From Chloroflexota bacterium (GTDB taxonomy: Bacteria; Chloroflexota; Anaerolineae; Anaerolineales; UBA11858), in the NCBI GenBank assembly GCA_018648225.1, contig JABGRQ010000071.1, positions 1 to 43,742 of the forward strand: a stretch of DNA of 43,742 nucleotides, in the 5' to 3' direction. The notes beneath the pieces are model-generated. The model saw nothing but the letters and a program-made list of their open reading frames with translations, was not told where the DNA came from and ran no database searches. Made by a program: the position numbers and the translations under genes. Shown in pieces: positions 23,093 to 43,742 of the stretch. Each line of letters begins with the position of its first letter. The stretch's first letter is position 1.

Positions 23093-23461
23093 ATGAGTTT
23101 CTTAGGTAATCTCGTCTGGTTAATTTTTGGCGGTTTTCTCTCCGGACTGGGGTATATCATCGGCGGGTTATTGTTTTGCCTGACGATCATCGGCATCCCC
23201 TTCGGTAAACAAGCCATCAAGCTGGGCATTGCCACGATGACCCCCTTCGGACGCGAAATTGTCGTCGCCGAGGAATTCGACAACCCGCTCAGTTTGCTGT
23301 TCAATATCATCTGGGCAATTATCTTCGGTTGGGAAATTGCGGTTTCGCACTTCGTCCACGGGCTGATTTTGGCAATTACGATCGTTGGTATTCCATTTGC
23401 CAAGCAGCATTTTAAGCTGATTCCGCTGGCTTTATTCCCGTTTGGCAGAGAATTGCGCTAA
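23093..23461 (+). CDS. yccF: YccF-domain inner-membrane protein
   Basis: The 122-residue protein contains two tandem copies of the YccF module. Each copy has a hydrophobic helix pair and a GIPFGKQ-type turn: TIIGIPFGKQAIKLG and TIVGIPFAKQHFKLI, each followed by a PFGRE motif (TPFGREIV, FPFGRELR). This is the diagnostic YccF (DUF307) pattern. The function is not well known. AAAAGGAG precedes the ATG. The gene ends seven bases before the selenoprotein ATG, so the two are probably one transcript. Confidence 0.92.
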   Translation: MSFLGNLVWLIFGGFLSGLGYIIGGLLFCLTIIGIPFGKQAIKLGIATMTPFGREIVVAEEFDNPLSLLFNIIWAIIFGWEIAVSHFVHGLILAITIVGIPFAKQHFKLIPLALFPFGRELR

Positions 23462-23468
23462 TTGAACA

Positions 23469-23933
23469 ATGAGTCGAATAGAAATTAACACCCCAGCCCC
23501 TGAGTTTGAACTCGCTGATTTCAACGGCAAGCTTGTAAAACTCGCTGATTTTCGAGCGCAAAAAAACGTAATTCTGGTATTCAACCGCGGCTTTGTCTGA
23601 CCTTTCTGCCGCCGGCACATGGCGCAGTTGCGCCAGGATTACGAATTATTCCAGGCCCAGGATGCTGAAATTATCGCTGTGGGGCCAGAAAATGCCCAAG
23701 CCTTCAAAGCCTACTGGGCTGAACATCAACTCCCCTTCGTGGGATTACCCGACCCCAAACATACGGTACTTAAACGCTACGGACAAGAAGTAAAAATCTT
23801 CAAGTTAGGGCGCATGCCCGCACAGAGCATTATTGATAAAAACGGACAGGTGCGCTATATCCATTACGGACATGGTATGCAAGATATTCCAGAAAACACG
23901 GAATTGCTGCAAATTCTGGCTGGGCTAAACTGA
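23469..23933 (+). CDS. Peroxiredoxin-like selenoprotein (in-frame TGA read as selenocysteine)
   Basis: The frame from ATG 23469 to TGA 23933 gives 154 residues with a single internal TGA at 23598-23600 (residue 44). Upstream it reads INTPAPEFELADFNGK...LVFNRGFV and downstream PFCRRHMAQLRQDYE, so the whole is an AhpC/TSA-type thioredoxin fold. The TGA replaces the first Cys of the usual CPFC motif, giving U-P-F-C. The frame and homology are unbroken on both sides, which argues against a frameshift or decay. A hairpin just after the TGA fits a bacterial SECIS. Peroxiredoxin-like UxxC selenoproteins are known in bacteria. Expected role: reducing peroxides with thiols in the cytosol. No clear Shine-Dalgarno; coupling to yccF is likely. 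An automatic caller would start at 23619 and lose the active site. Confidence 0.9.
23606..23627 (+). promoter_or_regulatory. SECIS-like hairpin
   Basis: CTG (23606-23608) pairs with CAG (23625-23627) and CGCC (23610-23613) with GGCG (23621-23624), with one bulged C and the loop GGCACAT. The loop begins about 13 bases after the TGA with G residues at its 5' side, as in bacterial SECIS elements. A competing stem (GGCGC at 23621-23625 with GCGCC at 23630-23634) is also possible. Confidence 0.6.
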
Positions 23934-25754: not shown

Positions 25755-28700
25755 ATGCTAGGTACTCAGTTTCAAGTACATTTATTTGGCGCTCTATCGC
25801 TATTTCATAATGGCAAACAAATACACTTGCCAAGGTCTGTTTCCGCGCGCGCGCTATTGGTTTATTTGCTGTTGAACCGCAAAATTCCGCAGCCGCGCCT
25901 GAAGCTAATTGGGGTTTTATGGCCTGAAACCCCTGAAGGGCAGGCCCGCCGTGCGCTTACACAGGCGCTGTGGCACCTCCGCAAAGATTTACCAGGTGGC
26001 TTGCTTGAAACAGTGGCAGATCATATCCAGATTTCTCCTGAAGCCCCGCTGTGGGTAGATGCTGAGACTTTTGCATCTTTAGCAAAGAAAAATCTCAAGG
26101 TAGTTCAACACGATACCGAAAATCTTCGTCAGGCAGTTGATCTTTATCGCGGGGATTTATTAGAAGGTTTCTATGATGATTGGGTATTGGTTGAACGCGA
26201 GCACCTGCGCGAATTGTATCTGCGATCCCTGGATTTTTTGGTGGATACCGAAAAAACGGCGGGACACTACACTCAAGCATTAGACTATGCCCAAAGACTG
26301 ACCAGAGCCGATTCCTTCCGCGAATCTGCACACCGCGCAGTAATGCGTTTGCACTATGCGTTAAACCAAACTGATGCCGCTCTGAACCAATACGCCCTTT
26401 GTTGCAAAATATTGGATGATGAATTAGGGGTTGAACCGGATGAAGAAACCAAAGCCCTGGCACGCGAAATCGCCGTGCGCGCCACACAGAAAGGCAGCCC
26501 CTATTTACCTCCGGTGATTACCCCACCCGGAACCCCGTGGCAGCAAGATGATGCACAAAGCATCCAAATCCCCATCCTTGGCAGAGATGAGGAACGTGAG
26601 TATCTATTGCGACACCTGGAAAGCAGCATGGCCGCCACAGGCGGCACCGTTCTCGTGGAGGGCAGTTCCGGCGTGGGAAAAACGCGCTTGCTAGAGGCAT
26701 TTGCTCGTGATGCCGAATGGCGCGGCGCGGAAGTCCTTTGGGGGCATAGTAGTGAATCGGGTACGGCAACCCCCTACGAGGTCATCGTTAATGCGCTGAG
26801 CAGCGGGTTGACATCCTTACGGGCAAACCAACTGGCGTATGCAGTTGACGAAATCTGGCTCAGCGCGTTGGGGACAATCATCCCCAATTTGACCGATAAG
26901 TTGCAGAATTTACCGAAATTGCCAGAGATGGCCCCTGAACAGTCGCACGAACGCCTGATGAGCGCCTTCGCTATCATACTATCTGCCTGGGGGCAGATTA
27001 GGCCCTTGGTGCTCATTCTCGAGGATATTCATTGGGCTGATGAAGATAGCCTGGATTTGTTGATCGCGCAGGCGCGCCATATTACAGGGGAATATATCCT
27101 GGTGGTTGGCAGCTATCGCGGCGCAGAGGCGCGCGGCAACCCTGCCGTTTGGGAGAAGCTAGATGCCCTGGACCGAGCCGGTGTGCGTCAGCGCATTGTG
27201 CTAGACAACCTGAACGCTGACAGTTCGGGCGAATTGGTTCGGCGCGCCCTCGGGCTAACCAGTGCGGCACCGCTCTTTGAGGAGCGGTTATTCCAAGAAA
27301 CGGGCGGCAACCCCCTCTTCCTTTTGGAGACGTTACGCACTCTGCACGACGAAGGACTGCTCGCTCAGGATGAAAACGGCAAGTGGAGTACATCTTGGGA
27401 TGCAACGACCGAAGATTATGCCGAACTGCCCATCTCACCGGCGGTGGAACGCACGATCGCCCGGCGCGTAAAATTACTACCCGATTCCTTGCAACCGACT
27501 CTTCAATTGGCTGCAGTGCTGGGCAAACGTTTCCACTTCGATGAACTACATAAAACCAGCGGGGAGCAACTTCACGATTTGTTGACAAAAATCCGCCTGC
27601 TAATCCAGCATAATTTTTTAGAAGAAACCGCGCAAGGCTATCGCTTTTCACACGAAAAAATCCATCTGGTCGTTTACGAAGAGATCGATGATAAGCAGCG
27701 CACAACTCTGCATCTTCAAGTCGCACAAGCGCTTTTAAATCTATCCCCAGAACGATTTGCAGACCTGGCTTGGCATTATCAGAGTGCAGGTGATATTGAT
27801 AAGGCCGCAAATTACTACTTCCGAGCTGGTCAAAGTAGCATGGCCGTAAGTGCTTTTACGGGCGCGTTGGAATTCTTCGACCAAGCTATCGCGTTGATAG
27901 AGATAGAACCAAGTTCACTGACGACTGATGAGCATTTTGCTATGCTCACCACCCGCGCAGAAGTGCTGCGAATTTTAGGCCGGCGCGATGACCAAGCCAA
28001 AGATTTGGATACCATGAAACAATTAAGCCAGGATTCCCCTGACTTAACGCTAAAAACTCTCTTACTCACAGCATGGTTACAAACACAAACGGGTGACTAC
28101 GACAAAGCAGAAGCAAACACAGAAAAAGCCCAGGCTCTTGCCGCGCATCTGGGCAATCAGTTACAAGAAACTGAAGCGCTGATAATTGCCGGGACGATTA
28201 GGAATTGGCGCGGGCAACCGAAAGATGCAATCCCACTTTTAGAAAATGCCGTCAACCTGACTACGAGCTATGACGATTTCGACATGGAGGCGCAGGCGCG
28301 CCACGCTCTGGCGAACGCTTTACTGGGCATAAAAGATTATCGAAAAGCTCAGGCCGAAATCGAACGCGCCCTGGAAATTTACACCCGCCAGGGTAATGTG
28401 ATGGGCCAGCTTGATCAGGTTCACATTTCCGGCATTGCGCATATGGAACAAGGAGATTTTGAAACAGCCAGCAAGCTGTATCAACGTTCCATAGAACTCA
28501 GCCAAGATTTGGGCTATCTTTACGCCGAGGGCCGCGCCCAGCTTAACCTGGCGAATATTCATTTCCTCCAGGGGGATATTACGGCGGCGTTAGATGGATA
28601 TGCTCATGCAGCTGACAATTTCCAGTTAACAGGAAACCGACGCGGTGAGGCCATGACACGAGCAAACCTTGCATCGCTAAAAGCGACCGTTTTGGGCGAT

Positions 28701-29621
28701 CTCAAAGGCGCTCGTAGAGAAGTAGATGCAGCCCTGGCTGCTTTCCGCGATATGGGTGATAGTGTTGGCGAGGGGCAATGCCTGGTAGTATCGGGGGAAG
28801 TGTATCGCAGCGAGGGCAACTATAATCAAGCCATTCCTCCGATGGAAAGCGGTATTGAGAAATTACTGGCGGGGGGAGAAAAATGGATTGCCGCGCAATG
28901 TTTTCGTCCGCTGATCCTGGTTTTCATAGATAACAATCAGCCCAAACTTGCCATCGAAACCGCCGAAAGGGCTGAGCAAATCTGCAATGAGTTGGGCAAT
29001 GACGATATGCTGATGTATTGCAGCGCTCTTCGCGGCATTGCGCATCTGCATGTGAATCAGCCCGAGAAAGCGCTCCAAATCACAGAGCGAGCCATCACCA
29101 ATTGGCGCAAAGATATGGATCAGAGTTATCTCTTTCCATACTGGCACTATCAATGTCTTATCGCGAACCAGCGAATCCCAGAAGCACATCAGGCGCTGAC
29201 ACAAGCGCACCAGTTACTAATGGAAAGTCTGCGAGGGTTGTCCTCTGAGCAGCAGAGATACAGTCTCGAGAATGTACCAGAACACCACGGCATCATGACT
29301 GCCTGGGGGAAAATACAGCCCCAGAGAATCAGCATCAGCCTGCCTCAAATCGACGCGCCCACAGGGCGGCCCCTACAAAACGACGAGTATGTGGAAGTCA
29401 CCTGGACGGTAGAATCTCTAGAAGATGGCGAGATTGAAGGAAAAACGGATCTTCGGCGGCACCGCATTTTGCGCTTGCTGGTTGAAGCCGAAGTACAGGG
29501 GGCAGCCCCTACGGTGGGCGATCTTGCCGACATATTGAATGTCAGCGACCGCACCATCAAACGCGATATAGCGATCTTGCGTCAAATGGGTCATCACATT
29601 GAAACCAGGGGTAGCACTTGA
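25755..29621 (+). CDS. Large BTAD/SARP-type regulator with AAA ATPase, TPR array and C-terminal HTH
   Basis: The 1288-residue cytosolic protein begins with a winged-helix/BTAD pair (about 1-245; HLFGALSLFHNGKQIHLPRS, YRGDLLEGFYDDW). An AAA-type ATPase follows, with Walker A G303-SSGVGKT and Walker B LILE423D424IHWAD. Residues about 640-1170 are TPR repeats (for example QARHALANALLGIKDYRKAQ). The end carries an HTH (about 1240-1280; VGDLADILNVSDRTIKRDI). Such proteins are signal-integrating activators of the SARP/LAL type. Having DNA-binding domains at both ends is unusual. Two stretches near the C-terminus are encoded by GC-rich repeat-like DNA. The three lipoprotein genes downstream are plausible targets. 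The ATG is probably leaderless. Confidence 0.85.
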   Translation: MLGTQFQVHLFGALSLFHNGKQIHLPRSVSARALLVYLLLNRKIPQPRLKLIGVLWPETPEGQARRALTQALWHLRKDLPGGLLETVADHIQISPEAPLWVDAETFASLAKKNLKVVQHDTENLRQAVDLYRGDLLEGFYDDWVLVEREHLRELYLRSLDFLVDTEKTAGHYTQALDYAQRLTRADSFRESAHRAVMRLHYALNQTDAALNQYALCCKILDDELGVEPDEETKALAREIAVRATQKGSPYLPPVITPPGTPWQQDDAQSIQIPILGRDEEREYLLRHLESSMAATGGTVLVEGSSGVGKTRLLEAFARDAEWRGAEVLWGHSSESGTATPYEVIVNALSSGLTSLRANQLAYAVDEIWLSALGTIIPNLTDKLQNLPKLPEMAPEQSHERLMSAFAIILSAWGQIRPLVLILEDIHWADEDSLDLLIAQARHITGEYILVVGSYRGAEARGNPAVWEKLDALDRAGVRQRIVLDNLNADSSGELVRRALGLTSAAPLFEERLFQETGGNPLFLLETLRTLHDEGLLAQDENGKWSTSWDATTEDYAELPISPAVERTIARRVKLLPDSLQPTLQLAAVLGKRFHFDELHKTSGEQLHDLLTKIRLLIQHNFLEETAQGYRFSHEKIHLVVYEEIDDKQRTTLHLQVAQALLNLSPERFADLAWHYQSAGDIDKAANYYFRAGQSSMAVSAFTGALEFFDQAIALIEIEPSSLTTDEHFAMLTTRAEVLRILGRRDDQAKDLDTMKQLSQDSPDLTLKTLLLTAWLQTQTGDYDKAEANTEKAQALAAHLGNQLQETEALIIAGTIRNWRGQPKDAIPLLENAVNLTTSYDDFDMEAQARHALANALLGIKDYRKAQAEIERALEIYTRQGNVMGQLDQVHISGIAHMEQGDFETASKLYQRSIELSQDLGYLYAEGRAQLNLANIHFLQGDITAALDGYAHAADNFQLTGNRRGEAMTRANLASLKATVLGDLKGARREVDAALAAFRDMGDSVGEGQCLVVSGEVYRSEGNYNQAIPPMESGIEKLLAGGEKWIAAQCFRPLILVFIDNNQPKLAIETAERAEQICNELGNDDMLMYCSALRGIAHLHVNQPEKALQITERAITNWRKDMDQSYLFPYWHYQCLIANQRIPEAHQALTQAHQLLMESLRGLSSEQQRYSLENVPEHHGIMTAWGKIQPQRISISLPQIDAPTGRPLQNDEYVEVTWTVESLEDGEIEGKTDLRRHRILRLLVEAEVQGAAPTVGDLADILNVSDRTIKRDIAILRQMGHHIETRGST
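29355..29376. repeat. GC-rich repeat-like stretch in the regulator gene (copy 1)
   Basis: The block ACAGGGCGGCCCCTAC lies in frame and encodes APTGRPLQ. Its style (TAGGGGC...GCCC on the other strand) is that of dispersed intergenic repeats. Confidence 0.45.
29494..29520. repeat. GC-rich repeat-like stretch in the regulator gene (copy 2)
   Basis: ACAGGGGGCAGCCCCTAC resembles copy 1, is in frame, and encodes QGAAPTVG next to the C-terminal HTH. Confidence 0.45.
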
Positions 29622-43103: not shown

Positions 43104-43276
43104 ATTTCCTCACCTCCTTTATGTTGAGGAGTTGGAAAAACACGCTTGCGGTGTTTATATCCAGGCAACAAAAAAGGACGCATACTGGGAGCATACTCTC
43201 CAGCACACACCCTTATAGCTATAAACTGTGCGATTATAAATGATAATGTCAATTATATAAAATAGAAAAAAGTCTC
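43104..43276 (-). other. Leader between 5S rRNA and rpsU
   Basis: 173 bases, AT-rich near 5S. A TTGACA (43247-43252) and a TATAAT (43233-43238) occur on the minus strand but are only eight bases apart, so they are not a standard pair. A small inverted repeat (CCTCAAC / GTTGAGG-like, around 43110-43133) overlaps the rpsU Shine-Dalgarno zone. No other gene is seen. Confidence 0.35.
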
Positions 43277-43393
43277 CTTGGCGATGACCTACTCTCCCAG
43301 GGGGCTACCCCCCAAGTACCATCGGCGCTGGCGGTCTTAACTTCCGGGTTCGGGATGTGGCCGGGTGTACCTCCGTCGCTAGAATCACCAAAG
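43277..43393 (-). rRNA. rrf: 5S ribosomal RNA
   Basis: On the minus strand the sequence holds the 5S hallmarks: ACACCCGGCCACATCCCGAAC, split here as CACCCGGCCACATCC and CGAACCCGGAAGTTAAG, then GCCGATGGTACTTGG and GGGAGAGTAGG. The two ends (CTTTGG...CCAAGG) form helix I. Length about 117 bases. Confidence 0.95.
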
Positions 43394-43491
43394 AGACTTT
43401 TATTCACTAAGTTGTTAACTTACTGAACTGAATATGTTGCGATAATCAAATGACAAGTTCCGAAAAGTTCTGAGTTCTCCGCACCACGAAG

Positions 43492-43742
<251 letters not shown>

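Follow-up and report, generated by a model that had tools for sequence, protein, structure and literature searches.

A predicted peroxiredoxin-like UxxC selenoprotein of an uncultured Chloroflexota, and a probable shift of its SECIS hairpin in one clade of relatives

The locus and its read-through protein

The window, a 43,742-nt stretch of DNA from an uncultured Chloroflexota genome, carries on its forward strand a gene interrupted by a single in-frame TGA. Translated with TGA as selenocysteine (Sec, U), the gene (23469–23933) starts at ATG 23469 and encodes a peroxiredoxin (Prx)-like protein of 154 residues, with Sec at codon 44 (23598–23600). The stop codon at 23931–23933 is TGA too, as it is in the nearest relative, L015. 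The Sec codon opens a UPFC redox motif (23598–23609), and both Sec44 and Cys47 are invariant in a 14-protein alignment. AhpC/TSA homology continues unbroken across both flanks of the codon, and the read-through protein matches PF00578 over the full profile (positions 1–124, E=1.8e-25). The internal TGA, the normal stop ending at 23933 and the family-like sequence on either side had all been described in the original prediction. It had also expected the gene to be truncated by standard gene calling; under the standard code the ORF is one of 104 aa that begins at ATG 23619 and lacks the catalytic motif, and an annotation of 23469–23933 would contain this fragment without its active site.

The surroundings of the gene are less constant than the gene itself. 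A YccF-domain membrane protein gene (23093–23461, forward strand; PF03733, E=5.4e-37) ends 7 nt before the selenoprotein start. Neighbourhood comparison found the same neighbour at L015/L035, L036 and L038, and it was absent at the other loci. The YccF gene may therefore share an operon with the selenoprotein gene, though in near relatives only, and we rejected it as a conserved partner or family-wide functional link. Elsewhere in the window lie five other, weak candidates for frames split by TGA, a BTAD/AAA/TPR regulator of 1288 aa that has an HTH domain close to its C-terminus (25755–29621), and, at the window end, a 5S rRNA gene with the 3' end of a 23S rRNA gene (43276–43742, reverse strand).

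Structure prediction and alignments place the Sec residue where thioredoxins carry their N-terminal cysteine. An AlphaFold2 model built from 14 sequences reached a pLDDT of 92.5 and a pTM of 0.89; residue 44, modelled as Cys, sits just before helix 45–56 in a thioredoxin-like placement. The best PDB matches in Foldseek were Bcp1, Bcp4, AhpE and ResA (query TM about 0.75–0.87). Proteins of the Bcp/PrxQ, AhpE and ResA types are the closest solved structures by sequence and fold, but they are Cys proteins with about 18–28% identity to the window protein. Alignments set Sec44 opposite the Thr of the peroxiredoxin TxxC motif, which corresponds to the thioredoxin N-terminal Cys, and Cys47 opposite the peroxidatic Cys. 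The label "peroxiredoxin" in the original prediction thus needs amending: the UxxC motif and AhpC/TSA domain stand, but the protein is peroxiredoxin-like rather than a peroxiredoxin proper, with Cys47 in the peroxidatic position.

The in-frame TGA and the machinery to decode it

The TGA codon is conserved well beyond the immediate relatives of the window gene. We assembled 79 homologues besides the window gene from GTDB-representative contigs and from relatives in its own order and phylum. At the codon aligned with residue 44, 76 carry TGA and three carry the Cys codon TGC, a distribution that excludes a chance origin of the TGA. The scan of GTDB-representative contigs alone contributed 15 relatives, and all that cover the site have TGA there. 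TGA homologues are labelled Anaerolineae, Deltaproteobacteria/Syntrophaceae, Clostridiales and Gemmatimonadetes, and so span several phyla; the nearest named relative is an Anaerolineae metagenome-assembled genome (MAG), and the closest outside the window's group are of Syntrophaceae type. Downstream of the TGA, codon changes relative to L015 (92–93% identical) are 18 synonymous and 6 non-synonymous, which indicates that the part after the TGA is selected as protein. A second, distant TGA subfamily also occurs in the same order (L112, L113 and L055), with a U-[ML]-Q-C motif and about 30% identity.

Selection on both sides of the codon bears directly on whether the TGA is simply a stop. Were the gene a pseudogene, or the TGA a sequencing or assembly error, only the 104-aa ORF from 23619 would be translated, and standard translation does yield that ORF. 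According to the model, however, this product would miss the N-terminal beta strands and the entire catalytic motif. The same TGA recurs in 76 homologues across genera and phyla, constraint is visible on both flanks, and a fitting SECIS and a full selABCD set accompany the gene. With the conserved TGA and purifying selection weighed together, we discarded the true-stop explanation as extremely improbable.

The window's genome (4.02 Mb, 97% complete, 226 contigs) encodes every component that the original prediction had expected elsewhere in it. Profile searches recovered selA at 543 bits and selB at 299 bits, or 332.5 bits when an adjoining in-frame piece is included. The tRNA-Sec gene (selC) scored 53 bits with the Rfam model, above the gathering score; its anticodon is UCA, and the anticodon loop CUUCAAA was read by eye in the sequence. 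A contig end cuts off the 5' end of this gene, and the truncation is probably why ARAGORN did not report it. selD (L032, G000:C157:32613-33548) was found at 349 bits and is interrupted by a single TGA of its own in the context SCSG*ASK; it is presumably a selenoprotein itself.

Genome-wide reassignment of UGA, for example to Trp or Gly, would likewise account for a UGA read through at 23598–23600 and would involve no selenocysteine. Yet the window gene and L015 both terminate in TGA, the alternative residue in relatives is Cys rather than Trp or Gly, and the genome holds a dedicated Sec machinery. The gene's own TGA stop and the Cys replacements led us to dismiss reassignment, which we hold to be more improbable still than a true stop.

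Among related genomes, selA is commoner in those with the TGA gene. In a sample of 61 genomes (the window's and 60 relatives), selA scored above cut-off in 16 of the 17 that carry the TGA gene versus 27 of the 44 that lack it (Fisher p=0.0097, only indicative given that the genomes are related). selA was not found in the TGA-bearing genome G017, which is 88% complete. Two of the genomes with a Cys-type homologue have no selA, and in one selA lies in two pieces and falls below cut-off. As a separate observation, genome G021 combines a Cys form (L051) and a two-piece selA with a distant relative, L113, that has both TGA and hairpin; the explanation would be an assembly frameshift within selA or else a recent loss of the trait.

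The SECIS hairpin and family assignment

The supported SECIS, as judged from folding and comparison of sequences, is a hairpin at 23620–23635 on the forward strand. It has the form UGGCGC-AGUU-GCGCCA, with a 6-bp stem that begins 19 nt past the UGA, and its apical loop AGUU (23626–23629) lies 25 nt past the UGA with a guanine at loop position 2. The published bacterial model has a loop of 3–9 nt with G within loop positions 1–2, a UGA spacing of 16–37 nt, a stem of 4–16 bp and a minimum free energy of at most -7.5 (PMC13188914). All features of the hairpin fall within these bounds: a loop of AGUU, a spacing of 25, a 6-bp stem and -10.8 kcal/mol. Folding of the 53-nt segment that runs from the UGA gives this same hairpin at minimum energy, and folded alone it is more stable than any of 200 shuffles (z -3.6; 0/200 as stable).

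Conservation points to the same structure. Each of the six pairs is formed in 40–41 of 41 relatives of the same register. One relative, L026, has GAUGC/GCAUC in place of GGCGC/GCGCC, so that two pairs are changed in a compensatory way and two residues of the protein differ as well (A52 to M, R55 to H); in L015 (93% identical), one stem pair is broken. The loop codon pair CAGTTG is present in 56 of 58 genes with the loop at +25, and TTG accounts for 16% of the Leu codons in the remainder of these genes. The Cys-type homologues L051–L053 (TGC) carry CAACTT, CAGCTG and CAACTG at the loop codons, and a pairing check at the SECIS position found neither hairpin nor loop in them. In the distant subfamily of L112, L113 and L055, an AGUUG loop is also located at +25.

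The original prediction had placed a SECIS-like hairpin at 23606–23627. That structure can indeed fold alone on the forward strand (-9.6 kcal/mol), with G residues on the 5' side of its loop, but it shares 23620–23627 with the hairpin at 23620–23635, and the two are mutually exclusive. Its loop lies only 13 nt past the UGA, outside the 16–37 nt of the model (PMC13188914), and the three pairs at its upper end are present in 30, 24 and 13 of 41 relatives and broken in 11, 17 and 28. The 53-nt fold and the conserved CAGUUG apex both favour 23620–23635. We therefore rejected 23606–23627, which is very unlikely to be the SECIS, and retained the prediction of a downstream hairpin with its position corrected to 23620–23635.

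Redox proteins with a UxxC motif have been known as a selenoprotein family since the mid-2000s. We place the window protein in the published Prx-like UxxC family, an assignment based on its domain, motif and the taxonomy of its relatives. The "Prx-like thiol:disulfide oxidoreductase" with UxxC is an established family, "predicted with high confidence" (PMC13188914 Table 1) and treated earlier in PMC1088965, PMC1794560 and PMC2398784; members listed come from Syntrophus, Geobacter and Desulfotalea (PMC1794560). The window gene has the AhpC/TSA domain, a UGA in UxxC, UGA/Cys pairing among homologues, a SECIS and the Sec machinery. It shares with the family ("Prx-like 1", PF00578) the AhpC/TSA fold, the thioredoxin-type UxxC and a SECIS directly downstream; it differs in its host, an uncultured Chloroflexota. 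The listed representative of the family is WP_010940744.1.

Two neighbouring groups were considered and set aside. Prx-like (UxxC) and Prx (TxxU) selenoproteins are distinguished in the literature (PMC1088965). Sec-containing peroxiredoxins with TxxU share the fold superfamily and an active-site Sec, but their Sec takes the place of the peroxidatic Cys in TxxC, whereas in the window protein Sec stands opposite the Thr and Cys47 opposite the peroxidatic Cys; this difference separates it from that group (PxxxTxxU). The best NCBIfam match is the SelL-related redox protein NF040769 (E=1.8e-23, residues 9–105), but its 83 bits fall short of the cut-off of 120. SelL proper has a UxxU motif, unlike the UxxC of the window protein.

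Together, these results make it highly probable (about 95%) that 23469–23933 encodes a thioredoxin-fold Prx-like UxxC selenoenzyme in which UGA 23598 is read as Sec, with the enzymatic activity predicted from sequence. The selenoprotein with a UxxC active site named in the original prediction is thus backed by homologous TGA codons in 76 of 79 relatives, a SECIS and selABCD. As in the established bacterial pathway of Sec decoding, SelB carrying GTP and Sec-tRNA-Sec would bind the hairpin at 23620–23635 and deliver Sec at UGA 23598; the terminal UGA (23931–23933), having no SECIS, would end translation. The Sec44 selenolate may then attack a peroxide or disulfide substrate, Cys47 would resolve the product by forming an intramolecular selenenylsulfide, from which a reductant of thioredoxin type would regenerate the enzyme. 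The physiological substrate could be either a hydroperoxide or a protein disulfide.

Position of the SECIS within the family

Not all homologues keep the hairpin in the same place. In 18 of them the best hairpin follows the pattern GCGCGC-AGUUG-GCGCGC and has its loop 16 nt past the UGA, 9 nt nearer to it. These sequences (L046, L048, L050, L075, L077, L080, L081, L084–L093 and L097) form a single clade with support 1.0 inside the +25 sequences (FastTree, midpoint root). All six stem pairs are formed in 11 of 11. Their GC-rich stems score scarcely better than shuffles (z -0.69), so the case for the +16 hairpin is carried by conserved pairing and not by energy.

The protein sequence appears to have followed the hairpin. 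Without any indel, the +16 proteins read C-R-A-Q-L-A-R-x-R-x-x-Y where the +25 proteins read C-R-x-H-M-A-Q-L-R-Q-D-Y, so that Gln-Leu shifts along the active-site helix from HMAQLR to AQLARx. Loop codons in the +16 clade are CAGTTG in 12 of 18, CAGTTA in two, CAGCTG in one and TCGTTG in three. We think it likely that the SECIS moved 9 nt, or three codons, towards the UGA once, with its C-AGUU-G apex mostly kept and Gln-Leu carried along. A single relocation, with selection on the RNA dragging the Gln-Leu codons, would be the simplest reading of these alignments. The RNA thus appears to dictate two residues, Gln-Leu, of the active-site helix. A limited literature search found no report of SECIS relocation in the UxxC family, and we claim no priority.

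The locus and its genome show both Sec decoding and a selenoenzyme gene in a Chloroflexota-like lineage that is uncultured. If the relocation is true, recognition by SelB fixes two residues of the enzyme and tolerates a change in spacing from 25 to 16 nt. The homologues across the family offer a clean natural experiment, the probable relocation in one clade included, in how a SECIS within a coding region constrains the protein sequence.
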